From NCBI GenBank assembly GCA_039704465.1, contig JASFAU010000010.1:558001-622000 (forward strand): a DNA stretch of 64,000 bases, read 5' to 3'. Below, one piece after another: positions 7,902 to 62,437 of this stretch. Position numbers and translations under genes: made by a program. Source of the DNA: Plasmodiophora brassicae. Taxonomy: Eukaryota; Endomyxa; Phytomyxea; Plasmodiophorida; Plasmodiophoridae. How positions within the stretch are numbered: position 1 is the first letter of the stretch; the number at the start of each line of letters is the position of its first letter. A model generated the notes under the pieces. The model was not told the origin of the DNA. It searched no databases and saw only the letters and a program-made list of their open reading frames with translations.

Positions 7902-10900
7902 ATGTCGATGTATGGCGCCATGGAGGACGGCCCGATATCGATGGGCGGTGTCGATGCCGATGACGATATCTCGCCGAGCGATTCCTGGACGGTCATCTCG
8001 TCGTATTTCGAGATGCACGGCCTCGTCCGGCAGCAGCTGGACTCCTTCAACGAGTCGGATCGCCGAATATCGTGATGACGACGACGGAGTGCCATCTCAC
8101 ATGTGCGCACGTGTAGGTTCGTCACGAATACGATCCAGTCTGTCGTGTCAGAATCATTCCCCATCGAAGTTTTCGAAGACCCGAGATCCGAGGAGGAGCG
8201 CGGCTCCCGTTCAAAGACGCGGGTATCGTTTGGACAGGTAATGCCCACCTTGCGTACCCGGATACGTTGGGGACTGACATGGTCTGCGCTGTAGATTTAC
8301 GTTTCCGATCCTCAAATGCGCGAAGGCGACGGTGCTCCCGAATACCTGTTTCCGTCGACTGCTCGTTTGCGCAATCTGACGTATCGTGCTCCTCTTTTCG
8401 TCGACGTTACCCGCTGCAAAGTGATCGTCGCTGAAGACGCCACCGAAGAGGTTCGATCTATCAGGATATTCGCGATAGCGATGTAGTCTCACGTGAGACA
8501 GATTGTTGAAGGTACCGAGTCTACGGAGAAAGTGTTCATTGGGAGAATTCCCATCATGTTACGAAGTCAGTACTGTCACCTTGCTCCTGACCCCGAGCAG
8601 GGCGACAAGGCGCTATACGACCTTGGCGAGTGTCCGAAGGACCAGGTAGACGCGGCGCAGATCGCCGTCGAGCAACTCGCGTGCTCATTGCTCGACAATT
8701 ACAGGGAGGGTATTTCATTGTCAATGGTAGCGAAAAGGTTCTTGTCGCCCAGGAACGCATGTCCAGTAACCACGTCTACGTGTTTCACAAGCAGAAGAAG
8801 GACTGGGTCGCGGAGATCCGCTCTGTTGCCGAGGGATCGAACAAGCCTACCGCTACGCTCATTGTGAAGAAGGTGTCATCGGCCGGAAAGGGCAGCGCGA
8901 TTAGCGGTCCAGTGCTGCGGGCCACCGTCCCGGGCATCTCTTCCGATATCCCTGTCATGATTGTTTTTCGCGCCCTTGGGATCGTATCCGATCGTGCCAT
9001 TCTTGAGCACATCTGCTATGACTTCGGGGATCAGCAGATGATGGAGCTGCTTCGACCCAGTCTTGAAGAGGCCTACTGGATCCAGGATCAGGAGCTTGCC
9101 TTGGATTACATTGGCAAACGTGGCGCTGCCGTCGGTGCTGTACGTGCGAAGCGTATCAAATTCGCGAGGGACCTGCTCCAATCCGACTTCTTGCCGCACA
9201 TTGGAACGGAGGAGTTTTGTGAGACCAAGAAGGCGTACTTCTTTGGCTACATAATTCAGCGGCTGCTTCACACGGTCTTGGGCCGACGAACCGAAGACGA
9301 TCGAGATCACTATGGCAACAAGCGGCTCGACTTAGCTGGCCCGCTCCTGGGACAGCTGTTCCGTCAACTGTTCGACCGCATGCGCAAAGACTGCTCACGG
9401 TACATCGCCAGGAAGATCAGCGAAGGCAAGGACTTCTCGTTGGATCTTGCCCTGAACCCAAACCACATCACTCATGGGTTGAAGAGCGCGCTGGCGACCG
9501 GCAACTGGACCGCCAACAAGGGTGGTGGTGCGACCAAGTCCGGAGTTGCCCAGGTTCTTCAGCGCCTCACGTATACGGCGACATTGTCCCACTTGCGGCG
9601 GTTGAACACTCCGATTGGAAGGGATGGAAAAATCGCCAAACCACGACAGCTTCATAACACGCACTGGGGTGTGATTTGCCCTGCTGAAACGCCTGAAGGC
9701 CAGGCGTGTGGCCTCGTCAAGAACCTCGCTTTGATGGCGTATATCAGTGTTCCGAACCCGTCGCAGATCATTACCGACTTCCTGGAGGACTGGAGCATGG
9801 AGAGTCTAGAGGAGACGCCTGCGGCGGCTATTCCGCATGCGACAAAGGTACGAGGTTGAAGGTGTCCGTCATGGATGTTTCCTGATCAGGAGTTGGCAGA
9901 TCTTCGTGAACGGTGCGTGGATTGGCGTTCACCGGGACCCACAGTACTTGGTCAACACGTTGCGTACGTACCGGCGGAGGATGAACCTTCCTCTTGACAC
10001 GAGCATCGTGTGGGATATGCGGGACCAGGAAATTCGCCTGTACTCGGATGCTGGTCGATGTGCGCGCCCATTGTACATTGTTGAAGACCAGCGGTTACGG
10101 ATTCGCAAGGGCCACATCAACGCTCTTGCGGATGAACACGTGAAGTACTCGTGGTCTAACCTGATGACCGACGGCCTTATCGAGTACATCGATACCGAAG
10201 AGGAGGAAACTGTCATGATTGCCATGCACATGCACGAACTGCGTCAGTCTTCATATTCGCGAACGTATACCCACACCGAGATCCATCCTTCCATGATCCT
10301 TGGAATTTGCGCGTCGGTTATCCCATTCCCAGACCACAACCAGTCTCCGCGTAACACATATCAGAGTGCCATGGGCAAACAGGCGATGGGTATCTATGCA
10401 ACCAACTACCTGCAGCGCATCGACACGCTTGCCCACGTGATGTACTATCCCCAACGCCCTCTTGTAGCGACCCGCGCCATGGAGTACCTCCATTTCAGTG
10501 AACTGCCGTCTGGCATCAACGCTATCGTCGCTATTGGTTGCTATTCCGGCTACAATCAAGAGGTAACGCTAACGACGAACTCATGAACTCGGTCAGTCCC
10601 TCACCTTTGCGTTCGCCACAGGATTCCGTCATCATGTCTCAGTCAGCCATTGACCGTGGTCTCTTCCGGTCTGTCTTCTACCGGTCGTACCACGATGTCG
10701 AAGCTCGGCATTCGTCCGACGTTATCGAAGAGTTCGAGAAGCCCTCTGCTGAGACGACAGCGAGCATGCGGTTCGGGTGCTATGACAAGCTCGACACGGA
10801 CGGGCTAATTGCTCCTGGCACTCGTGTATCGGGCGACGACATTATTATCGGAAAGACGACGCCGCTGCGTGAGGCGCAGGTTGGGTCGATTCGTCAGCAG

Positions 10901-46020: not shown

Positions 46021-46217
46021 TGTTCATCCAGAGTACCAGTACTCAGATGATGCTGCTCAGATGCTGCTGCCACCCGGTCACATGATCATGACCGTACTCG
46101 ACCCCGCAGCGGCCCTTGCTGTGACGATCCTGTCCAAATACATCAGTTCGTTATATCACCAGGCGCCGACTCTTGCGACCGACCGCCCCCGTAGTGGGCA
46201 GCGGCGGCGTTAGCACA
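46021..46217 (+). repeat. 5' LTR
   Basis: Begins TGTTCATCCAGAGTACC and ends GGCGGCGTTAGCACA; identical by eye to 51159-51355. Confidence 0.95.
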
Positions 46218-46260
46218 GAAGCTTCTTGCGCAAAGAGCCCCAAGCAAACGAACTCACTTA

Positions 46261-46917
46261 ATGGCAGGAGGTGGCCGCAGAGCGCCCGTTCGTCTACAGA
46301 TGGAGGACGACGCCAGGACCAACTCCGACGCCGAGGCCAAGGAGCATGAATCGTCGACAGATGACGAAATCGATCGAGGGCTTCAGTCAACAAACCTGCA
46401 CGGTAAGAGCCCGATCTTTATGCCTTTGAAACCGCCCATCCTACGTACCCTGAGCCTTACGGCCAAGGACGGAATTAACGATTTCCTCAAGAAATATAGG
46501 AAACACGTCGAGATCGTTAACGAGCGCCGACTGATCTACAAGGAGGATATTCATCCGCCAACGGTGAAGTCATGCATTACCGAGGACGTCCTCAGAGGGA
46601 TGTCGAAATATCGCCTACGTCAACCCGCCAGCACGATCACGGATGGCGACATCATGAGCTACTTGAGGTCAGTCCAACGCAGGGAGGCTGATGTCGAGAG
46701 TTCGACAGACATCAAGGCGCTTCTCACGAAGACAGTGGTCATGAACCTGTCAATCAAGAGTATTGAGGAACGTGTCACGTCTTTCTTCGCCAAGTTCGAT
46801 GAGCTAATCGACGACTATGGGCTACAAGACACATACGCCAAAAAGGAACGAAAGGAACCAAGCGCAAGATCAAGGTATTACGCGGAGGTATCCGTCCCAC
46901 TGACCTTGCGGTTCTAG
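46261..46917 (+). CDS. gag: Gag, N-terminal part
   Basis: From MAGGGRRAPVRLQMEDDA. Helical capsid-like sequence follows (LTAKDGINDFLKKYRKHVEI, DIMSYLRSVQRREADVESST, IKSIEERVTSFFAKFDELID). The frame is lost near 46850 and continues one base back as FGGCRDAEKDELKFFDLVDR. The packaging protein of the retrotransposon particle. Confidence 0.75.
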   Translation: MAGGGRRAPVRLQMEDDARTNSDAEAKEHESSTDDEIDRGLQSTNLHGKSPIFMPLKPPILRTLSLTAKDGINDFLKKYRKHVEIVNERRLIYKEDIHPPTVKSCITEDVLRGMSKYRLRQPASTITDGDIMSYLRSVQRREADVESSTDIKALLTKTVVMNLSIKSIEERVTSFFAKFDELIDDYGLQDTYAKKERKEPSARSRYYAEVSVPLTLRF

Positions 46918-47723
46918 TCGAACGCGCGATCGAGTTCGGAGGGTGCAGGGACGCTGAGAAGGACGAGCTCAAATTCTTCGACCTCGTCGACCGTCTTGCC
47001 AAAGAGCAGGACAAACACTTCCGGCTGCAAGCTGAGAAGAAGAAGTCTCCAGCGCAGACCATGTCCCCACCTGCAGGTAAGAAAGGTAAGGACGTTGTTG
47101 CTCCGAATAGGAATGGCGGCAAGCATCCGACAAATCCGATCGGACTGAAGACAGCTCAATCGTCCACATCGCAAACGAAAGACGAATCGAGGGACATCCC
47201 CGAGCACATCCGAAAACGTTTCGAAGGTAAGGATCCTCCAAAGGCAGGTTGCCTAATCTGCAAGGAGCAGCACTGGGTCCAAGTGTGCCCGAAGGCAACT
47301 CAAGGAGAACGCAAAGCTGCCATTGAAAAGTTCCAGAAAGAGCGCAAAGAGAAGGAGGAGAGTAAGGGCAACGCAGACACGGCAAAGCGCATGGGCCCGC
47401 CGTCGCCGTCAACACCGTCCCCTATGAGACTTCGCTTCCAGAACTCGCTCGACCTTCCATTCGAAGCCGATAGTGGTGCGACGAAGACCGTCATTTCGCA
47501 ATCGCAACTGCTACGGATTCAAGCCATCCAGCATGTCCCAGTCAAAGTGTTCGACCATCCAACGGAGGCGAAACTTGCAACGATCGGGGCTACGACAACA
47601 ATTGTCGCCACAGCGATCGTGGACATCACCATTGTCCCACCTTCGCATGGCAAACCTGCACATCTACGCGGGCGGGAAATCAACGTATGTCGCGAAGACC
47701 TATCTGATGACATTGTCCTTTAG
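46850..47723 (+). CDS. Gag C-terminus and aspartic protease
   Basis: The second frame carries a zinc knuckle CLICKEQHWVQVC (C-x2-C-x3-H-x4-C, one residue shorter than the usual CCHC), a Lys/Glu-rich spacer, and the protease active site DLPFEADSGATKTVISQSQL with DSGA. It ends at 47723, followed by pol in a third frame. Confidence 0.75.
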
Positions 47724-47743
47724 GAGCCCCGGAACTGGACGCG

Positions 47744-49624
47744 TTGGGTATCAATCCAGCTACACAACTGAAGGAGATGTTAATCGAGGCAAATGGTCCT
47801 ATCATCATCGAAGCGGATCCGACCCCGGAACGTCACGCCCCAGGTGGTCAAGGGATCACGATGAGAGCGGTAAGACACCCGGAGGTAAGTGGAACAACTC
47901 GCGATCATGAGCCCCAATTGGACACCAATGATCCGGGTGACGACTATGATGTCGAAATCGGAGAACACTCCGATACAGACGTGGACAGGGCAATAGACCG
48001 GATGATACAACGTGCAACTGACTCCGGTTTCCCTAACGATCAAGTCCCGCGTCTACGCACAACTGTCAATCGACACAAAGACATATGGCGAACGAAGCTT
48101 GGCCGTGATCCACCTGCGAAAGTAAGTCCACTGAAACTACACTTCAAAGCAGATGCTCGTCCTGTTCGTTGCCGAACACGAAGGTATACCCTCGAACATC
48201 AAAAATTCATGGATGATCACGTAGGAACCTTGGCGGAAAACGATTTTGTGTACCGCAATCCGCACAGCAGGTACGCGTCGCCGTGTCTGGTCGTCGACAA
48301 GAAGGACACGGAGGTTCGCGGCCATCGGCTGACCGTCGACATCAATGAAGCCGTCAACAAACAGACCGAACGCATTGCATGGCCGATGCCTCACATCGAC
48401 ATCATCCTGACCTACCTACGTTCCGCGACCATCTTCATGCTGTTCGATGCCTTTAAAGGCTATTGGCAATTTCCGTTGCACCCTGATTCGCAGGAGGCCT
48501 GCTCGTTCATGACGCACATCGCCACGTTTACACCCAGGCGCATCATCCAGGGAATCGCTGATTGCGTGTTTGCGTTCCAGGCGGGAATGCAACAGGTGTT
48601 GGGGAAACTTCTATATATCTGCGCCCTACTCTGGATCGACGATATCCTCGGCTACGTATCTGGATTCGGAGCCTACATGGACACACTCGAATCTCTTCTC
48701 AACGCTTTCGACGAGTTTGGAGTTAAACTCAACCCTGATCGCTGCCAGTTATATCTCACTTCAGTGACATGGTGCGGTCGCGTTATATCCGCTGATGGAG
48801 TGTCGTTCGATCGCTCGTATCTCAACGCCTTGCACGATCTATCAACTCCTATCACGGCTGCTGATCTCCAACAGTTCCTCTCGGGCCTCAATTGGGTCCG
48901 TTCTGTTATCCCTCAATTCGCGGCACATGTTCATCCGCTACAGGATCTACTTCTGTCCGCTTCTCGTTCTGTCAGCAGTCTGAAGAAATCACACCTACGT
49001 CGAGTTCGTTTAGCCGACATCGGCTGGACCACTGACCATCTCACCAGTTTCAATTCTCTGAAGCATCGACTATCGGAGGCCATGACGCTGGCGCACCCCA
49101 AGGACGAATGGATCATGTGTCTCTTTCCGGATGCGAGTGACCGTTTCTGGTCTGTTTTCCTGTCGCAGATCCCTCCGGAAGATATTGATCTCCCGTACGG
49201 TGAGCAACACCACGAACCTTTGTCGTTCATCTCGGGGACATTCCGTGGTTCTCAATTGAAGTGGGCGACCATTGAGAAGGAGGCCTACGCCATCATTGAA
49301 GGCTGCTATCGCCTCAGACACTTCATCTCTATGTCAAAGCTGGCACTTCGAATCTTCACAGACCACCGTAATTTGGTTTTCATTCTGAACCCAGCCTCGG
49401 TTGCACGAATTAGTCGGACGACCGGCGATCGCTTGGAGCGCTGGCGACTTCAGATTATCGACCTAGATTTTCACATTGAGCACATTGCTGGGGAGGACAA
49501 CGTTTGGGCCGACCTCGCCACGCGGGGGGCGTCGCCCTGCAACCACTCTCCTCATTTTCCCCTCCATCGTTCCGTTCTATTCGTCATATGGCAATTAATC
49601 TTGACTTCGACGATTACAAGATGA
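47744..49624 (+). CDS. pol: Reverse transcriptase and RNase H
   Basis: RT motifs: DFVYRNPHSRYASPCLVVDK, LTVDINEAVNKQTERIAWPM, FDAFKGYWQFPLHPDSQEAC, and the catalytic WIDDILGY (Trp/Ile in place of the usual Tyr/Phe-x before DD). RNase H: MCLFPDASDRFWSVFLSQI, KEAYAIIEGCYRLRHFISMS, FTDHRNLVFIL and EDNVWADLATR. The frame ends shortly after a run of six G at about 49525-49530, where integrase goes on one base back. Confidence 0.9.
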   Translation: MGINPATQLKEMLIEANGPIIIEADPTPERHAPGGQGITMRAVRHPEVSGTTRDHEPQLDTNDPGDDYDVEIGEHSDTDVDRAIDRMIQRATDSGFPNDQVPRLRTTVNRHKDIWRTKLGRDPPAKVSPLKLHFKADARPVRCRTRRYTLEHQKFMDDHVGTLAENDFVYRNPHSRYASPCLVVDKKDTEVRGHRLTVDINEAVNKQTERIAWPMPHIDIILTYLRSATIFMLFDAFKGYWQFPLHPDSQEACSFMTHIATFTPRRIIQGIADCVFAFQAGMQQVLGKLLYICALLWIDDILGYVSGFGAYMDTLESLLNAFDEFGVKLNPDRCQLYLTSVTWCGRVISADGVSFDRSYLNALHDLSTPITAADLQQFLSGLNWVRSVIPQFAAHVHPLQDLLLSASRSVSSLKKSHLRRVRLADIGWTTDHLTSFNSLKHRLSEAMTLAHPKDEWIMCLFPDASDRFWSVFLSQIPPEDIDLPYGEQHHEPLSFISGTFRGSQLKWATIEKEAYAIIEGCYRLRHFISMSKLALRIFTDHRNLVFILNPASVARISRTTGDRLERWRLQIIDLDFHIEHIAGEDNVWADLATRGASPCNHSPHFPLHRSVLFVIWQLILTSTITR

Positions 49625-51149
49625 CCGATGAGTTTATCTGGCCGTCTGTCGACGAGATTAGTAACGCTCAGACCGACTACATTCGCCAACACGACCTATC
49701 TGCCGTTTCCGATATTCTCCAACTCGAAGGGGACATGTCTCTCCACCTTAGCCCGGAATCTGGCTGGCGTACTCCAGACAATCAACTCTGGGTACCATCA
49801 CATGCACTGCAGCTACGCATCGCAGTGATTTCACATATGGGACTGTCTGGTCATCAACCTGCTGCATCGACTATTTCGAGCATCGCACAACTCTTCTGGT
49901 GGCCTGATCTGGATTCCTTTGTTCGTGCATTTGTGGACAAATGCTTACACTGCCTACGCAACAAAGATTCGATGATTCCCCGACCTTTTGGCACGGCTAT
50001 GCATGCGGACAAGCCCAATAAGGTCATCCACTATGACTTTCTGTTCTTATCCAAACCTCGTCCAGGCGATTCTCATCAACTTCGTTATGTTCTGGTTCTG
50101 AAGGACGACGCCACGGCATTCGTCGAGTTAATTCCTTGTCAATTCGCGGATCACAGCGTTGTCGCCGAATCTCTTCTGGATTGGTTCAAACGTTTCGGCA
50201 TTGTTTTCCAACATGTCTCTGACCGCGGCACACACTTCAAAAACGCGGTTATCGCCGAGCTTAATAGCCGGTTACACTGCAACCATCATTTCACAACTGC
50301 CTACACACCTTGGGCGAACGGCACGGTTGAGGTTGTCACAAGCGGCTTCTCTTTCTGCTGAAGTCCCTCCTCTCCGAGCTAAATCTTCCATTCCAGGATT
50401 GGCCGTATGTCCTTCCGCTGATCAACATGACGGTAAATCACACTGTTCGATCAAGTGTGGGCTACGCGCCTGTCACGATGTTTACGGGTTTGCCACCCTC
50501 GACACCTATCTCGATTATCTTCAACAAACGCATCGACGCGGTTATCGACGTACCGTTGACCCCTGACCGTCTCAAGGAAATGACGACGGAACTTATCGAT
50601 TCTCTCGAGGACATGCACAAAGCAGTGGCACGTACACGCACCCATCTACGTGATCTCAAGCAACGCGCCCGGCGTCGCCGACGCAATGTTCGCGAGATCA
50701 ACTTCACGACGGGCGACTATGTTCTCGTGGCCAACCATGGCAAGCACTCCAAGTCCGAGTACAACTGGACTGGACCTGCCCAGATTATCGACACCATCAA
50801 CGACTGGGTGTATCGAGTTCGAGATCTCTTGACTGATCGTATCTCAGATGTACACGCCCAGCGCTTAATGTTCTATGCAGATGCGCACTTGAATGTCACC
50901 TCTTCCCTGAAGCACAACATCGCGCTCACCGGCGTGGCTTACCAAGTCAACGCAGTCGAGGACATTCGAGTCAACTCTACGTCAGGTGACACTGAACTAC
51001 TGATCAACTGGATCGGATTCGATGCCACCGACAATTCATGGGAACCTTACTCGGTCATGGCGGCCGATGTTCCTGATATCGTCAGGGCCTTCCTCGAACG
51101 ACAAGCCGAAGGAGACCCGCTCTGCTCACGACTGTTAGCAGATTTCTAA
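49525..51149 (+). CDS. Integrase with C-terminal chromodomain
   Basis: HHCC zinc site: ISHMGLSGHQPAAST to KCLHCLRNK. Catalytic core: first Asp in VIHYDFLFL, second in VSDRGTHFKNAV, Glu in ANGTVE. A frame change at about 50340 then leads to VNHTVRSSVGYAPVTMF, the DNA-binding region VREINFTTGDYVLVANHGKH, and a chromodomain-like end NAVEDIRVNSTSGDTELLIN followed by WIGFDATDNSWEP. Chromodomains steer insertion into marked chromatin. Confidence 0.88.
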
Positions 51150-51158
51150 CACGGGGAG

Positions 51159-51355
51159 TGTTCATCCAGAGTACCAGTACTCAGATGATGCTGCTCAGAT
51201 GCTGCTGCCACCCGGTCACATGATCATGACCGTACTCGACCCCGCAGCGGCCCTTGCTGTGACGATCCTGTCCAAATACATCAGTTCGTTATATCACCAG
51301 GCGCCGACTCTTGCGACCGACCGCCCCCGTAGTGGGCAGCGGCGGCGTTAGCACA
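51159..51355 (+). repeat. 3' LTR
   Basis: Copy of 46021-46217, followed by CGTTC of the minisatellite, which is also the target duplication. Confidence 0.95.
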
Positions 51356-52725
51356 CGTTCTGCGGGGGATGCCGAGGCGAGATCGGCACGGACGGACGGA
51401 CGGGCGGGAAGAGACAGCAAGCGGTCAGGGGAACACCTGTGGCCTGAGAGGCATACAGCACGGCGGGACACGCACTCTGGGACTTGGACCAGGTACGACC
51501 GAGGCCTTGACGTTCTGCGGGGGATGCCGAGGCGAGATCGGCACGGACGGACGGGAAGAGACAGCAAGCGGTCAGGGGAACACCGGTGGCCTGAGAGGCA
51601 TACAGCACGGCGGGACACGCACTCTGGGACTTGGACCAGGTACGACCGAGGCCTTGACGTTCTGCGGGGGATGCCGAGGCGAGATCGGCACGGACGGACG
51701 GGAAGAGACAGCAAGCGGTCAGGGGAACACCGGTGGCCTGAGAGGCATACAGCACGGCGGGACACGCACTCTGGGACTTGGACCAGGTACGACCGAGGCC
51801 TTGACGTTCTGCGGGGGATGCCGAGGCGAGATCGGCACGGACGGACGGACGGGCGGGAAGAGACAGCAAGCGGTCAGGGGAACACCTGTGGCCTGAGAGG
51901 CATACAGCACGGCGGGACACGCACTCTGGGACTTGGACCAGGTACGACCGAGGCCTTGACGTTCTGCGGGGGATGCCGAGGCGAGATCGGCACGGACGGA
52001 CGGGAAGAGACAGCAAGCGGTCAGGGGAACACCGGTGGCCTGAGAGGCATACAGCACGGCGGGACACGCACTCTGGGACTTGGACCAGGTACGACCGAGG
52101 CCTTGACGTTCTGCGGGGGATGCCGAGGCGAGATCGGCACGGACGGACGGGAAGAGACAGCAAGCGGTCAGGGGAACACCGGTGGCCTGAGAGGCATACA
52201 GCACGGCGGGACACGCACTCTGGGACTTGGACCAGGTACGACCGAGGCCTTGACGTTCTGCGGGGGATGCCGAGGCGAGATCGGCACGGACGGACGGGAA
52301 GAGACAGCAAGCGGTCAGGGGAACACCGGTGGCCTGAGAGGCATACAGCACGGCGGGACACGCACTCTGGGACTTGGACCAGGTACGACCGAGGCCTTGA
52401 CGTTCTGCGGGGGATGCCGAGGCGAGATCGGCACGGACGGACGGGAAGAGACAGCAAGCGGTCAGGGGAACACCGGTGGCCTGAGAGGCATACAGCACGG
52501 CGGGACACGCACTCTGGGACTTGGACCAGGTACGACCGAGGCCTTGACGTTCTGCGGGAGATGCCGAGGCGAGATCGGCACGGACGGACGGGAAGAGACA
52601 GCAAGCGGTCAGGGGAACACCGGTGGCCTGAGAGGCATACAGCACGGCGGGACACGTACTCTGGGACTTCGACCAGGTACCACCGAGGCCTTGACGTTCT
52701 GCAGGAGATGCCGAGGCGGGATCGA
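51356..52725 (+). repeat. 147/155-bp minisatellite, right block
   Basis: Nine full units and a partial one, beginning at 51356, 51511, 51658, 51805, 51960, 52107, 52254, 52401, 52548 and 52695. Spacing is 147 bases except two units of 155, which carry eight extra bases in a GACGGACG tract. Units are nearly identical, so the array is young. Confidence 0.93.
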
Positions 52726-52758
52726 CAGGAGGGTGGTGGGATAGGTAGTCCGTCAAAA

Positions 52759-52945
52759 TGTCACGATCAGGCAAGCTGATGCAACGAACGCTTTGACGGA
52801 CTGGCGAAGTCCGTCGCGGGGTTCTCGGTTTATTCCGGACAGTCCTCACAAAATGTCACGATCAGGCAAGCTGATGCAACGAACGCTTTGACGGACTGGC
52901 GAAGTCCGTCGCGGGGTTCTCGGTTTATTCCGGACAGTCCTCACA
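52759..52945 (+). repeat. 92-bp direct repeats, copies 2 and 3
   Basis: 52759-52850 and 52854-52945, identical by eye to 45109-45200. They close the minisatellite on its right side. Confidence 0.9.
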
Positions 52946-54245: not shown

Positions 54246-55728
54246 ATGGATCGGGAAACCCTTACGTTACCTGTATTTTACAGTGTAAAGTTGGTTCCTG
54301 AGTGGTGTATTTTACATGTAAAAAACAGGCTTGTAAAAAACACCCCTTTATTACAACAATTCCATAGGAAGGACAACGAAGGCGTTGCCCGGCGACGCTG
54401 CCTGCACACCGTCAAACAGAAGCGGGCCATTGTCCGTTCCGCCACAGCTCGTGGCAACATCAAGGCAACGGCACGTGAGTATGACATCAAACCGTGTCAA
54501 ATTCGTGACTGGCGAAAAAACTTAATGGGTCCGACCGACGAAACGTCGAGCGACAACAACGACGATGAAGGGATCATTCGGTTCGAACCGTTCAGCACGC
54601 GAACGTCTAAGCGAAGGACGCGGTCTCACGGCAGAACGTCGACACTACCGGCAGACGTGAAGGAGACGATAGAGGAACATGTCAAATACTTGGGCAGTTC
54701 TGACCTCAACATCAACGTCAAAGCCGTTCACCGGTTTGTCACATCGTAAGTTAACCGTTACGGCCAGTTACACATTACTTATTCGTGTGTATCCCAGACG
54801 GTGTCCTCAGTATGCCGCGTCCATCACGAACGCGCAGGCGTCCGAGCAGAAAATACGACGTTATCTGCATCGGAACGCCAAGCTCGTCGAGAGACGGTAC
54901 ACTCGGGTCGCCCAGAATACTCGCTACGACGAGGACGTTGTTCGTGACTACCTGTCGTCGGTCAACAACTTCGTCTGGGATCTTGGAATCATAGATCCGC
55001 ATCTGCTGCTGAACATGGACGAGACCTCCCTACCGTTTGACCAACCGAAGTCATCGACTCTTGCTCTGAGGGGAGCTCGCACCATTCGATGCAGGACGAC
55101 CGGTTCAAGCAGCAGTGCAACTGTGTGCTTAACCGTGTCGATGGCGGGGGACAAGCTCGGCATGTTCATCATTTTCAGAGGTAGCACTATGAGTTGGCGT
55201 CGTTTTTCTTCGATCTCATTCTGATGGCAGGCGTCCCTGGAGGGCGGATCGAGAAAGAGCTCCGACTGCTCGACGCCCAGAAGCCAGAAGGGTGATGGTC
55301 ACCGCTGTATCGTCCAGCAAAAGAACTGGAACGATGAAAGAGGCATGAGGGCTTACGTCGACCTGATCATCCGTCCATGGGTGGGTGGAAGACGGATGAC
55401 CTCACTCCTTCTCCTGGACGATATGTCGGCGCACAAATGCCCGCCGGTAATTGACGCTCTGGCCCAACACGGCGTTGAGGTTGACATTGTTGAGCCTCGC
55501 TACACCGGTCGCGTTCAAGTCCTGGACGTTGGTGTTAACAAGCCCTTCAAGGATCGCGTCCGATGCCTGTGGGAAAACTGGTTGCACTCCGAAATGCAAC
55601 GATGCCCGAACGTAGTTCCAAAGGTCACGCGTCCACTCGTTCGCGAGTGGGCTGTTGCGGCGTGGAACGAGGTCACTGCCGTATCAATTACTAACACGTG
55701 GAGCGCGGTCGGGTTCAGGGTCAACTGA
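54246..55728 (+). CDS. Pogo-like transposase (HTH plus DDE_1)
   Basis: N-terminal helix-turn-helix: VKQKRAIVRSATARGNIKAT with AREYDIKPCQIRDWRKN (psq/CENP-B type). A GT-AG intron (about 54748-54796) joins VHRFVTS to RCPQYAASITNA. Catalytic region: LLLNMDETSLPFDQPKSSTL (first Asp), TVCLTVSMAGDKLGMFIIFR, a further intron at about 55181-55230, LLLLDDMSAHKCPPVIDALA (second Asp), VQVLDVGVNKPFKDRVRCLW (third Asp), ending ITNTWSAVGFRVN. A one-base frame change near 55290 interrupts it. The start in the GTATTTTAC-rich region is uncertain. Confidence 0.8.
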
Positions 55729-56254: not shown

Positions 56255-56271
56255 GGGGGGGGGGGGGGGGG
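56255..56271 (+). repeat. G17 homopolymer
   Basis: Seventeen consecutive G, ten bases before a second G7 run that belongs to the pogo-like terminal repeat. Length is unreliable in any assembly. Confidence 0.9.
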
Positions 56272-56575
56272 TCGTGTTCAAGGGGGGGTCGTATTCTTTG
56301 TAAAATACGGTAGACAATCGGCGGGATATACGCTGCCCGAAGCGGCGGCCCTGTGACCATGGGCAGCATGCAGGCATGCTATGAAACCCAGGACGCGCAC
56401 GCACGTATGCGGCTCGGACGCTACGTGATACGTCATGAGCAAAGTGACTCAACCCCCGGTGGCGCTCGATTGCCGCTCGACTCCGCTCGAATGATCAATC
56501 GACAAGATTAATTCCTTTTTGGACCCCGGCAGCAAATCTTATTTTTCTGTGACTTCAGATCATTTTTGTTGGCGG

Positions 56576-59500
56576 ATGCCTCGAGGAACAGGTGCCAAGA
56601 GCTCAGGCGGCAATGGCCGGCGAGGGCCGGATAAGATCAAGCGCAAGCGGTCGTGCTTCCGGAGGCCTTCTAAAAGCGCATCGGCAGCTGAGGTGTGCGA
56701 TGCGAATTTGACTCCGCCTAGCTAGGCATCTTCTCATTATGTCTTTCAGAATCCAAATCCGTTTACCGCGCGAAATGTCAGTGCCGGCAATGAGGAGTCA
56801 TCGTCGTCGTCGCCGTCATCGTTGCCTCCACAACCATCGCCGTCACCTGCGTCATCGCCGTCACCATCGGATGCACGACATGTATGTATTTCACACGTCT
56901 ACCGTACCTAATGATGCGCTGATTAACTTTCATCGCAGACGTTCGTCAAAGAGTACCTGCACACTCTGATAAAAGAGTTGAAAGAGCAGCTTCGTCAGGA
57001 GAAAGGCGCGCTGTACGATCACCTCAAACGAGGTATTCTACCGCTATCGTCGATGGCGTGAAACTATTTCTGATACGTACTGCTGTGGTCGTGGAAGGCC
57101 ACACAACGATCGAACCTGTTAATCCGGTTATAGCCTGTTTCACTTCTGGGCTTAATCCAGAGCACTTCTGGAAACCGGCTCTTCGGTGCTGGCTTCCGAA
57201 GTTATGGTTCCCAGAACTGGACCTGAAATGCCCGAAGTGCCATCAGTTTGGAAAACACCATAAGCATGGTTACGCTTCGAAGTAAGTGATATTGCGGTGT
57301 CTCGTCACATCATCTCATACATATTATGTTCAGTCCCGAAGCGCGCTGTGTGGCAGGGCTCCGAAACGACTGGTATCTTTTTACGAGCGTGCTTCAGTGC
57401 GCTTTCTGCCGCCATCGATTCTACGCCACACATCCGGACGTGCTAGGCAATATGCATCAGGCGTTTAGCAACCCAATCCTGCTGCCGTTCGTCTTGTCCG
57501 AGTCGTCCGGTCTAGATTCCGATGTCGCATGGATGATGCCTATTATTTTCAATGATGGAGGAACGGCTGAGTCGTTACATCGGATGATGTCGGAAGGACA
57601 CGCCGAGCAGCGTGACCTCTTGCATGCGGTGTACAATGCCGTGTGCGACTTCCGCCTGAAGAAGTCTGTGGGCCTGCCGGACCCGCCAAAGTTCGATCGG
57701 TCGCAGGTCGATGTCTCTGTGCCAGCTGCTTCCTCGTTGCTGTCGATCTACAAGCGTGAGACGCTGCGATATGAGAAGTATATGAATCTTCATATGTTGA
57801 CGCTGTCGGCCGAGTCGGCCAAGCTGGACGCATCCCATAAGATGCCGAAGCTTATCTGCAACGTGAACGGCCAGCGCATATTCGATACAGCAGTCCAGGT
57901 ACAGCCGGTAAGGCGTTGACGTACAAACTTCCACTAATGTCGTATGCTTTGATAGGTTACCAATGAGCGAAGTCAGATCGTCGCCTTTTACCTATGTGCT
58001 GGTACAGGGCATGATCAGGTGGACTACTAAGCGTGTGCTATGACGTACTACCTTTTAACGATTGCCCTTGTAGATCGAGCGACCTCTGGCGCAATGGGTG
58101 CAATCTCGGAGCCTGCTCAATCAGAAGTTGCCGTCGTCAATAGGAACGGATAAAGTGAGGCCCCTTCACTGCATCCCCGGTCAAATCAGCTAACGTCGCT
58201 ATAGTGCTGTGATGACGAGGCGTTCTTGACGCGACTTTTCAAATACGAACAGCATGTGGGTCGGCGCAGGCTTGAGCCGTTCACGTTGTCCGGTGGGCAA
58301 AGAACGTGCGTGATTGAATCGATCGGCAACGCCGATTCGATTGCCTTTGGAATGCTTCAAAGAGCGCACGAAGCTGGCCGACCACTGGCAGCTGGAGTTG
58401 ACAGCGAGTGGGTTACTGTCAGGGGACAACGGCGGAAAGTGGCTACCGTTCAAGTGGCCCTTGAAGGCGATGATGCTGTGTATATTTTCAGACTTTCAAA
58501 GATGGGTGAGATGCCCCGAGGTCTGAAGGACTTCCTGGAGTCGACGAGCATCGTGAAAGTCGGCAAGTCGATTACAATCGACAAGCGACACATATGCAAC
58601 GATTACGGTCTCCGTGTCGACGGGACAGAATCCTGGATAGAGCTGGGGCAGTTCGCCTACCGTCGCGGCGCTGCTCCGAGTTCGTCGAGCTTGGCCAAGC
58701 TCGTCCAGACGATTTTGCAGCAAGAGCTCCCAAAGCCTGAGCTAATCCGTCAATCGAACTGGGAAGCGAACGAGCTTTCGTCCGAGCAGGTGCGCTATTG
58801 TGAAATGTGACAAACTTGTTCTAAATGTTTTCAGGTAATGTACGCCGCTCTGGACGCGCACGCTAGCTTGCAGGTCTACTTGCGCTTGGAGGCAACCCCA
58901 GATCCGACAGTTCGTCTCGCCATTCCGGGGTCATCTCGCGCTTGCAACGGCGCAGGTATTCCTGTTCCTGGCATGGCAGTCGAGCTGCTTGCACAAGGCA
59001 CTCATGTCGTCGTTGCTCGAGGACGTATTTCGCAGTCGCAGCCCGCCATTTGGGAGCAGACGAAGGTGACGAAAGGCCGCATTGTTGTCGACGTTGTAGA
59101 GGTAACTACTTCACGATGTAAGTAATAGCCCGGATATTGACCGTCATAGGTTCTGGCTTCTGCTGCCGAAGCCAAATATCCTAGGAACTCGAAGAGGACT
59201 CTGAGTTCCTTTGGATATTGTCCATTCTCCCTCTTAGTTGACATAACGTCGCTGCGCCCTACAATCCAACCACAAAGTACGTTTTCGTATTCAGAAGATG
59301 GACATGGTCGTTATAATTATTTGTTTAGACCCACACAACAATGATGGAAGTTCCCTTGATGTGAGCTCCGTCTCGGTCGGGTCAGCCGAAGGTAGGCGTC
59401 GCTGGGCCCGTGCATTGCACTCTTTTGTGATATGCGTTAGAATCAGGTGGCGAACGAGTGAAACGTGTCCTGCAGGATATATTTCACATCATGAAAAGGG

Positions 59501-61750
59501 TGAAGATCAGGAAGACCCATCCGTTTTACCCCGTATGGGTAATCGCACTAAGCGATGCGTTCTTCGTGTGGAACGAGGACGATGAACAGCGTGTCAGTTG
59601 CAGGCCGCATGTTTCTTTCTCCATTCTCACTATATTTCCTGTAGGTGATTAATAGTCTTATTAGCCGCGGCGAGAATCCGCTCTCCTGGAGGGTCCATCG
59701 CCGTGGCTATTTCCTTGACCGCGTTCGTCGAAGAATTCCTCCTCCAGGCCAGCTGGAAGAGCGTCTGAACCTTGTCTACAAGACGTGTTCTGGTCTGACA
59801 GACCACGACGGTAATTTTCTTCGTTATAAGTAATCAATGCGGGATCATTCATTGAGTTGCAGGCGTTCCCCTTTTCGACGATCGTGCACACGCCGAATTT
59901 CGGAAAGTTCTGGAGCATGTCCGGAAGGGCTGCTGCAGTGATCCGGACGGGGACGAATACCCGTTTTACACGGCCGTCGGTGAGGATGGCCACGGACTCA
60001 CGTTGTATCGGTGCCACCGTGGCACTAACTCCTGCGAGGCCAACCACAACGTCCTGAAAAGGAAGTTCGGGACGATGAACGCAGGCGTCGCATTGACGCA
60101 TTGCTTGATGCTGTGGCACATACTGCGCACAAACATTCGCGCAGGAGAATCTTTCGGAGACGGCTCTCCGGTTCTGGGGCATTTCCGACCCTGGCTTGTA
60201 TGTAACTGCTATTAGCGATTGCTGCGTTCTAAGTCTGTTTCCAGGTCGACTTCATTAACATGTATGCGACCAACGTATGGGGAGAGCCACAGCTCCCTCA
60301 GTTTTCATCCGCTCTCGATTGGCAATGGGACGAGTTGCGTCCGTATTGCCAGATGTTGCACTTTGGAGGGGAATGCGACCCTGCACATGCGTAAATCCCA
60401 CGATAGTACGTGCAAGTGCACACGCGTACTTTTTAATACTTGACGTCTTATAGGGGCGACCCAAACCCGCTTCTTTCCGACGACAAGCGGTACTTAGCCA
60501 AGTGCCAGGGCTCCACAGTTCCCTACCTTCCTGTGCACACTCCCGAAGAGGCCGATTTGTACCGGAAGGTACTGGCCGACTACGCAGATCGAAACCGTTC
60601 GACTGGAAAGGATTTCCAGGCGTTGGCGTCTCTATGGAACCAGCGGGCGTTGTCCCTTTGGCACCAGGTTAACCTCAACCGTCGGTGTAGTGAGCAAACC
60701 AATTCCTGGCATGATGAAGGATCGGACCAAGACGCGCACCCTAACGTTTTTCTCAAATTTGCTATTCATCTACGGAGGTTGTTGATTGTCTGACTTCTTG
60801 GGATACGCTATCTAACACGGTAACCAGGTATGATGAGCAGTTCCAAGCCGCAGTTATCGACCGCGAGTCCCGACGGGAAGCATCTTCAGAGACTTCCTCC
60901 CTGTTTGATGTTCTGCGCGGGCCGAATTGGCGACATCCGCAGGTACAGTCGTAGAGCTGGACACATTGCGTACTGTTAACTGAATTATTTTCCGCCGCTT
61001 GATCAGTACCGTGAATGTGAGACTGGCAGCGAAGAAGATCAAGACTGCAGGGTTCAGAATCACGTATATGGAACCTCGCAGAGAGTGGAGCCGGCTCACG
61101 GGGACAATCAGCCTGATAATGAATCGCAGGGGGAGAGAGACGCAGAGCGTGTTCAGGTGCGTGCTGGTTGCGCAAGGTTGCCACTACATTTATGAAGGTG
61201 TCGTGCAATGCAGAATACGGCGGCCAGCTCCGATGATTGTCACGATCCAGAAGAGTCTCCTGAGGGCCAATGTGGACCAGAACAGCCTCCAGAGGGTCAA
61301 CATGCTCTAGGAAATCCTCCACAGGCTCCACAAGTTCTTCCAGAACGCCCACGTGAGCTGCAGGCGTCCCTGCAGCACAGTAACGTATGATTTTAGCCCG
61401 CCATTTAACGAAAGCAACGCCCTGACTTGAACGCGTTTCTTCAGGTCGTACATCTACCGGCAATTGCGTTCGACAGCGCCACGCCTTCTGTGCTTTCAGC
61501 AGGACGACCAGCTAGCTCGGCGAAACGATCTAGCGCGTCGTATTCGGAACGGCGTTGCCACGCCCTTAAGTCACGAATGGTTAATCATGACGACGACCTT
61601 CTTTGTGGCAAGTTAGGCTGCAGTGGACTACGAGGCCATCATCTGTGTAACAATACGGATGAGTCTACGTTTCTGGCACGCAAACGTTGTAAGGCGATCA
61701 AGGCGGCCCGTGACGTTGAAAAGAAAAGGCAGAAGCGCGCTGACAGCTAG
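56576..61750 (+). CDS. DDE transposase-like protein with embedded DEDDy 3'-5' exonuclease
   Basis: A long gene with well over ten GT-AG introns. In order: basic Gly/Lys N-terminus (GTGAKSSGGNGRRGPDKIKR); Ser/Pro linker; coiled coil (TLIKELKEQLRQEK); zinc domain LDLKCPKCHQFGKHHKHGYA with CAFCRHRFYA; DDE-like first Asp LSAESAKLDASHKMPKLI; TNERSQIVAFYLCAGTGHDQ; second Asp GTDKCCDDEAFLTRLFKYEQ (spliced). Then an exonuclease: AAGVDSEWVTVRG (D-x-E), VGKSITIDKRHICNDYGL (Asp), and, after a clean splice at 58788, VMYAALDAHASLQVYL (Y-x3-D). Then RVLQDIFHIMKRVKIRKTHP, DRVRRRIPPPGQLEERLNLV, and YRCHRGTNSCEANHNVLKRK with the likely Glu. The tail is Pro/Gln-rich and basic. Splices I tested keep frame, so it may be intact. 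Exact 3' exons are uncertain. Confidence 0.7.
58226..58890 (+). other. WRN/RNase D-type exonuclease domain within the preceding gene
   Basis: The domain runs from about 58380 to 58890 once the intron 58788-58833 is removed. Four acidic residues and the Tyr of the DEDDy class are all present: D and E in DSEW, D in ITIDKRHICNDYG, Y and D in YAALDAH. The sequence LGQFAYRRG and SLAKLVQTILQQELPK match the SLa-L-v... block of RNase D/WRN proteins. Metal-dependent 3'-5' nuclease activity is expected. Confidence 0.8.
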
Positions 61751-62437
61751 CTGTTACTCCCATGCATTGTACTGGCAATACAAGATTGAATTCGATCGGG
61801 ATCTAGTAGGTAGATTTCCCAATAGTACTGGTACCGATCTCTCAGCGCATTATCGACATTGGGTGTCGCGCGCATTGAAGGCTGAGGGTGGCTGGGGTAC
61901 TGCACGTGCAAGATGTAGGTCTATTTTGGTCTTTTGTATTCAAATATTTTGGCCGGCGCGCTGCGCGGCGGCCAGTGAAGTTCATTCGAGCGGCAGCCGG
62001 TTGGCCATCCGACCAACAGATTCCCAGATAGCGAGTCGAGCGCCAGCGCGGGACCTCCGACTAAAAGCGAACCCGACCTTTAGTCTCCAAAATTGCGCAA
62101 CAATGACTGCGGGGCGCGAAAACAAGCTTTGCCACTGGACGGAAAGACGGCTGCGACTAGCGAACATAGGGCATCTCTGCGTTCAAAATGCTGACGATTC
62201 GTACAGTTCCTACGACTTTCTTTCCCTTCTCTTCTTCTGGGACTTTTAGTCTCCTCGAGAACCACAGGAGGCTAAAAGTTAGCCGCTGATAGGGGTTCGG
62301 TACCTGGTTGCATCCGTTCCGTCCCGTGTCGGAAGTGGCGGCCGATAGTCGAAAAAGTGCGGTCCGAGGAGCTACACAAATGGGGCGGGGGTGGCCATAG
62401 AAGCGGTCGAAGATCGTCGGCCGGGTCGGCGGGTGCC
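61751..62437. other. Intergenic stretch with GGAGACTAAAAG-type motifs
   Basis: About 690 bases before the ATG1 kinase. Related motifs occur in both orientations at about 62072, 62089, 62241 and 62266; the last two form a 13-bp hairpin (62243-62255 with 62266-62278, one mismatch). A GC-rich palindromic stretch (GGCCGGCGCGCTGCGCGGCG) lies at about 61950. The promoter of the kinase gene should be here. Confidence 0.45.

Follow-up and report, generated by a model that had tools for sequence, protein, structure and literature searches.

A probable autonomous Dada-type DNA transposon with an inserted WRN-type exonuclease in Plasmodiophora brassicae

The window analysed here is a stretch of 64,000 bp from Plasmodiophora brassicae (C10:558001-622000). 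Its plus strand carries an intron-rich gene for a transposase-like protein with a complete 3'-5' exonuclease inside it, and this gene lies within a mobile element of 5838 bp (Table 1). A preliminary description of the sequence had quoted short protein strings from this gene; all of them were located on the plus strand within 56576-61750, an interval that fits the gene, the mobile unit being slightly larger (56444-62281). For the gene model, splice sites were picked by hand from the sequence, exon 1 was chosen by phase, and the donor of exon 12 was shifted by 2 bases so that the frame holds. In the model, the parts join in one open frame without a stop, as expected for the single intron-rich gene that had been proposed, and the 19 introns (45-101 bp) are all GT-AG. 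Pfam analysis of the 1372-amino-acid protein detected DUF6729 (E 9.5e-12) and DNA_pol_A_exo1 (E 2.2e-14), besides which there was a single match, below its cut-off. The predicted order of the parts is DUF6729 with a CCCC zinc site, D329, D402, DEDDy exonuclease, DIFH, and E915. The zinc motif belongs to the same gene, as had been supposed, its CCCC site lying within DUF6729. A PDB sequence search with the two exonuclease exons gave the WRN exonuclease (PDB 2e6l and 2fbt) as the best match with E 1e-19, and a search with a five-sequence profile gave E 2e-38. The four acids and the Tyr that characterize WRN-type DEDDy enzymes are all present in the window exonuclease; the WRN exonuclease itself, however, belongs to a RecQ-type helicase protein and not to a transposase.

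Table 1 Features of the mobile element and its predicted gene in the window.
Feature	Position	Strand	Evidence
Mobile element, window copy, 5838 bp	56444..62281	+	Near-identical copy 2, whose 6-bp duplication fixes the right end
Left end with three CGCTCGA repeats (56463, 56474, 56484; 10-11 bp apart)	56444..56503	+	Common start GTGACTCAAC found at 4 genome places
Transposase-exonuclease gene, predicted 20 exons, 1372 aa, intact	56576..61750	+	Open frame; comparison with copy 2
DUF6729 (aa 81-308)	56873..57766	+	Pfam
N-terminal CCCC zinc site, C147-C150 and C186-C189	57229..57409	+	Five-sequence alignment
DDE first Asp, D329 (LDASHK)	57827..57829	+	Alignment
DDE second Asp, D402 (GTDKCC)	58149..58151	+	Alignment
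DEDDy 3'-5' exonuclease (aa 466-617): D469, E471, D529, Y601, D605	58391..58891	+	Pfam; PDB sequence search; alignment
DxxH motif, DIFH (aa 763-766)	59476..59487	+	Alignment
DDE Glu, E915 (RGTNSCE)	60036..60038	+	Alignment
C-terminal Cys/His cluster CGKLGCSGLRGHHLC (aa 1325-1339)	61604..61648	+	Predicted protein
Right sub-terminal region, inverted CGCTCGA at 61986 and 62036	61982..62052	-	Matches to the left end in inverted orientation
14-bp hairpin just inside the right end	62242..62279	+	Folding; 7 of 200 shuffles fold equally well
Right flank GCCGCT of the window copy	62282..62287	+	Compared with the duplicated site GCCGTT of copy 2

The genome (25.3 Mb, 21 contigs) was searched for relatives, and the genome-wide match counts are lower bounds. 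DUF6729 showed at least 9 matches at 8 places, the exonuclease at least 11 matches at 8 places, and the exon carrying the DDE Glu at least 25 matches at 15 places, decayed relatives included. In L011 and L012 (family B) and in L013, the first and second Asp of the DDE triad (D1 and D2), the exonuclease, and DxxH lie within one open frame of 956-1217 amino acids, and the Glu lies in the next open frame. The order of the parts is that of the window gene, and the seven catalytic acids were kept in three aligned relatives from the same genome. Protein searches with L012 and with alignment A1 returned two and three proteins, respectively, amounting to four distinct proteins, of which three (P0001, P0003, and P0004) are named Plasmodiophora brassicae by their source; a protein search with residues 100-1100 of the spliced protein gave no match. 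The public protein P0001, itself a prediction, belongs to family B and continues through the Glu. P0002 (ENA, 779 aa) lacks the exonuclease but has the zinc site, both Asp residues, DVWH, and E. None of the 41 pattern matches in viral contigs was a relative, and phage records gave no match. P0003 (2626 aa), which is labelled mitochondrion, contains a family-B transposase-exonuclease fused to an unrelated long protein and looks like an annotation error.

We aligned P0001, L013, the window protein, L015, and P0002, leaving out decayed copies such as L038 and L042. D329, D402, and E915, plus D763 and H766 of DIFH, were identical in all five sequences. Three of the four zinc Cys residues were also identical in all five, and the first was found in four (L013 has Trp). 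The four acids and the Tyr of the exonuclease were kept in all four exonuclease-bearing sequences. The D1-D2 spacing was 73, 70, and 69 residues in the window protein, P0001, and P0002, respectively, and the DxxH-E spacing was 152, 153, and 162 residues. In contrast, the D2-DxxH spacing was 361 residues in the window protein and 469 in P0001 versus 27 in the exonuclease-free P0002. Since only this spacing differs greatly from that of P0002 while the other two hardly differ, the exonuclease is, judging from the alignment, an insertion at a fixed place in a conserved DDE core. This agrees with the earlier proposal of an insertion that separates the second acid of the DDE-type transposase from the third.

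Between L011 and L012, the ratio of nonsynonymous to synonymous substitution rates (dN/dS) was 0.13 over the first open frame; among the segments, it was 0.034 in D1-D2, 0.116 in the exonuclease, and 0.028 in the Glu segment. These values show that this related pair is under purifying selection, the DDE segments being the most constrained.

The preliminary description had also proposed counting copies and looking for terminal repeats around them. A second copy of 5850 bp (copy 2) was found on the opposite strand at C10:1253013-1258862, ca. 0.63 Mb from the window copy. It spans GGGTGTGACTC to CTAAAAGTTA and shares 99.5% identity with the window copy across 5.85 kb, and the flanks are unrelated; movement was thus recent enough to leave this identity. 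The two copies differ by 15 substitutions, 5 of which are exonic (4 silent and 1 non-silent). Copy 2 has short frame-shifting deletions in the last third, whereas the window copy is intact, and it also has an 11-base insertion in the right sub-terminal region. As for repeats, sub-terminal inverted repeats were present, and no terminal inverted repeat was seen on inspecting the element ends. Between the end regions, the longest exact inverted match was 12 nt, and another extended over 17 nt at 88%; the 12-nt match was equalled in 1 of 2000 base shuffles. The hairpin sequence of the right end occurred at 4 genome places with at most 1 mismatch, and its reversed control occurred at none.

Copy 2 is inserted in a degenerate reverse-transcriptase-like gene, one of a family with 24 matches (both halves of the interrupted gene counted), and the two paralogs tested gave a weak RVT_1 match under the curated cut-off. 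We found 22 paralogs and fetched eight, in all of which the site is spanned by D-[GD]-C-x-F without any added residue. When the flanks of copy 2 were joined with GCCGTT once, the length was that of the paralogs; when they were joined assuming no duplication, there were two residues too many. Since none of the eight paralogs has extra residues, the pre-insertion site held GCCGTT once, so that the GCCGTT on both sides of copy 2 is a target duplication of 6 bp. Taken alone, this 6-mer is not significant (239 of 2000 shuffles). Our first termini, 56444-62285 without a duplication, had been taken from the two-copy alignment and were replaced once the interrupted gene had been compared with its paralogs; they had been misplaced because the right flanks share the first bases of the target (GCC in four of four and GCCG in three of four, with the GCCGCT of the window copy among the latter). 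In the genome, the left flank of the window copy had one partial match (80%) elsewhere and the right flank had none. Segmental duplication rather than transposition was ruled out by the target duplication and the empty site. A Helitron-like element, considered on account of the right-end hairpin, was likewise ruled out because the gene has no such helicase or replication domain and there is a 6-bp duplication.

Further observations concern other ends and fragments in this genome. Two isolated left ends of this family, L040 (C16:294476-294521) and L041 (C4:1162999-1163052), are both preceded by GAATCGG(G/A)T, and no matching right end was found within the stretches fetched; they are perhaps other element families or one-ended insertions. 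A decayed copy on C19 is flanked by an exact 50-bp direct repeat (L042:3602-3651 and 8584-8633), which is far longer than a Dada duplication. At five loci that are ca. 95-96% alike (L048, L050, L052/L060, L053, and L042; C20, C12, C11 twice, and C19), a 3' fragment of the transposase is joined to a duplicated gene with WD40-like (PD40) beta-propeller repeats (Pfam, one locus) and with tandem repeats; its start resembles a signal peptide by eye. Capture of this gene or its spread by the transposon is possible. These five loci had been considered as sources of element ends and were dropped because they are transposase 3' fragments.

Kojima & Jurka (2013, PMC3706591) describe Dada transposases as DDE proteins with DxxH and with N-terminal CCCC and C-terminal CCHC zinc motifs. 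In their description, Dada elements are 4666-10979 bp long, have introns in all cases except those of Perkinsus, generate 6-7 bp target duplications, and carry sub-terminal, not terminal, inverted repeats. For the Dada elements of Laccaria and Ectocarpus, the same paper describes a DEDDy exonuclease located after the second D and before DxxH and proposes that it processes cleaved 3' ends. Compared with Dada by this published description, our element is, with a probability of roughly 0.88, an autonomous, exonuclease-bearing Dada-type DNA transposon whose host, going by the protein matches, is Plasmodiophora brassicae or very closely related to it. It has the DDE triad (at the sequence level), DxxH, the N-terminal CCCC site, introns, and sub-terminal repeats without terminal ones. 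The DEDDy exonuclease of the window protein lies between D2 and DxxH, and a duplication of 6 bp is present at copy 2, though not at the window copy. The triad of Dada-U6_DR (D567, D635, and E811) has spacings of 68 and 176 (PMC3706591), compared with 73 and 179 in the window protein, the latter after subtraction of the 334 D2-DxxH residues in excess of P0002. As for the C-terminal CCHC motif of Dada, the window protein has a C-terminal Cys/His cluster that is spaced otherwise, and the clusters of family B and L013 are Cys-only.

Dada-1_LB, Dada-2_LB, and Dada-1_ES (Laccaria bicolor and Ectocarpus siliculosus; PMC3706591) resemble our element in DDE plus DxxH, a DEDDy exonuclease with all four acids, introns, and size range. 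They belong to other host groups and have no target in their names, and the comparison with them is by description only. The Laccaria families bear out the earlier suggestion of fungal relatives, whereas the statement that no function had been described proved wrong, the arrangement and its proposed role in 3'-end processing having already been published (PMC3706591). The Dada-U6/U1/tRNA families of fish, Daphnia, and Perkinsus (PMC3706591, PMC8869645) share with our element the triad spacing of Dada-U6_DR, the CCCC zinc site, a 6-bp duplication, and sub-terminal inverted repeats in place of terminal ones. They insert in small-RNA genes, whereas copy 2 lies in a reverse-transcriptase-like gene, and in the descriptions given by these two sources a Dada exonuclease is reported from two host species only.

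Several observations weigh against the assignment to Dada or against parts of it. Insertion into small-RNA genes is reported in PMC3706591 for all Dada families with clearly definable ends, whereas the gene hit by copy 2 is reverse-transcriptase-like and multicopy. Neither a tRNA nor an Rfam family turned up in the window; 13 loci had no tRNA, 12 had no Rfam family, and the 16 joined empty sites of four copies with corrected ends likewise had no tRNA. We did not use the small-RNA target to define Dada because several families listed in PMC3706591, the exonuclease-bearing ones included, have no target in their names. The window copy shows no target duplication, its right-flank GCCGCT having no match on the left side, and it lacks the first 4 bases of the left end (GGGT) that copy 2 has. 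No duplication was found in the family-B copies L011 and L012 either, whose ends rest on one comparison and are uncertain. With 28 matches in the window versus about 20 expected, CGCTCGA is no rarity there, and besides the five near its ends the element has a sixth in its interior. The zinc clusters differ somewhat from those of Dada-U6_DR (PMC3706591), the first Cys pair being separated by x2 here and by x4 there. As to the exonuclease, its dN (0.066) and dS (0.57) between L011 and L012 were both the highest of the measured segments, and its low dN/dS leans on this high dS; when its dN is divided by the whole-frame dS (0.34) instead, the ratio is about 0.2, still well under 1. The one exonic substitution between the two near-identical copies that is not silent also falls in the exonuclease. 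Moreover, the DDE flanks in the five-sequence profile matched no solved structure in the PDB at E <= 1, and the structure predictions were of very low confidence, with a mean predicted local distance difference test score (pLDDT) of 33.7 for P0001 alone and 30.4 for P0002 with three relatives.

We considered whether the element belongs to another DDE superfamily with C/DxxH (Kolobok, MuDR, hAT, or P) that acquired an exonuclease independently. C/DxxH is common to five superfamilies, and KolobokD, a DDE transposon, carries a DnaQ-type exonuclease, for which its author proposes 3'-end degradation of intermediates (PMC9587614); an exonuclease related to that of our element has therefore also been taken up by another superfamily. 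However, the KolobokD exonuclease is DEDDh, and Kolobok duplicates TTAA (PMC9587614), whereas copy 2 has GCCGTT. The exonuclease of our element is DEDDy, WRN-like, and located between D2 and DxxH as in Dada (PMC3706591), and the end repeats are sub-terminal, making an origin in another superfamily quite improbable. The intact window copy, the purifying selection in L011/L012, and the small number of copies would also fit a domesticated transposase retained by the host for its exonuclease or DNA binding. Such a host gene is very improbable considering that two near-identical copies have distinct flanks, that one of them lies inside another gene with a 6-bp duplication and already has frame-shifting deletions, and that decayed relatives are found elsewhere among the Glu-exon matches.

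That two adjacent genes were merged by hand splicing is barely credible: the model does come from sequence alone with hand-chosen splice sites, but the three relatives carry D1, D2, the exonuclease, and DxxH in an uninterrupted frame, and the predicted P0001 runs through the Glu. A different question is whether the exonuclease degrades RNA, for example to counter silencing of the element, instead of trimming DNA ends. The same fold occurs in RNase D, Rrp6, and mut-7, to which there were weaker profile matches; the best matches, however, were to the WRN exonuclease, an enzyme of DNA ends, and the placement of the domain within the catalytic region points to the transposon end as its site of action. 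Degradation of RNA thus appears unlikely.

For the Dada-type transposon, we propose the following mechanism. The transposase would bind the repeated, oppositely oriented CGCTCGA sites near both ends, which the zinc region and the C-terminal cluster may recognize. DDE enzymes with a C/DxxH motif cut the element ends and join the 3' OH ends to the target. By analogy with this family, the transposase would excise the element and join its 3' ends to the target with a 6-bp stagger, using D329, D402, and E915. The WRN-type exonuclease, placed between the second Asp and DxxH, may reach the same DNA ends and trim the 3' strands in the same protein-DNA complex. As a guess, it might act mainly on free 3' ends at the donor break, and trimming there might favour repair by sister-chromatid copying, whereby the element would be recopied. 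A rather doubtful extension is that the exonuclease-bearing members of Dada are a separate lineage, one that abandoned small-RNA genes and now goes into GCCG-anchored sites within multicopy sequence of other kinds, retrotransposons for instance, the exonuclease enabling this by remodelling 3' ends. If true, such remodelling would also account for the irregular or missing duplications.

Elsewhere in the window, a retroelement with reverse transcriptase, RNase H, and integrase domains lies at 46195-51149, and a near-identical piece of it (99.8% over 3.85 kb) was found 5' of the exonuclease-bearing element L015 on C11. Tandem repeats at 147-bp spacing, open in several frames on both strands, occupy 51289-52760. 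Transposase-like open reading frames lie at 54673-55728, the second being a DDE_1 match (PF03184, E 8.7e-12), and a run of 17 G is located at 56255-56271, shortly upstream of the element.

The architecture and the proposed role of the exonuclease are already in print (PMC3706591), and our element would therefore be a further example of the known Dada type. What is new is a member from Plasmodiophora brassicae (Rhizaria) of which one copy is intact, together with its termini, the duplication, and the insertion in a reverse-transcriptase-like gene. A literature search found no paper on Dada in P. brassicae, papers mentioning both being judged by title, and no paper on DUF6729. Our results suggest that DUF6729 is the N-terminal zinc region of this type of transposase. 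In the published description, exonuclease-bearing Dada elements come from one fungus and one brown alga and take up one short paragraph (PMC3706591), and the present element would add Rhizaria to the Dada hosts listed there. The intact copy, its near-identical sister, the defined ends, the supported 6-bp duplication, and several lineages in the same genome that keep both DDE and exonuclease together make it possible to test on a natural substrate what the exonuclease contributes to transposition.

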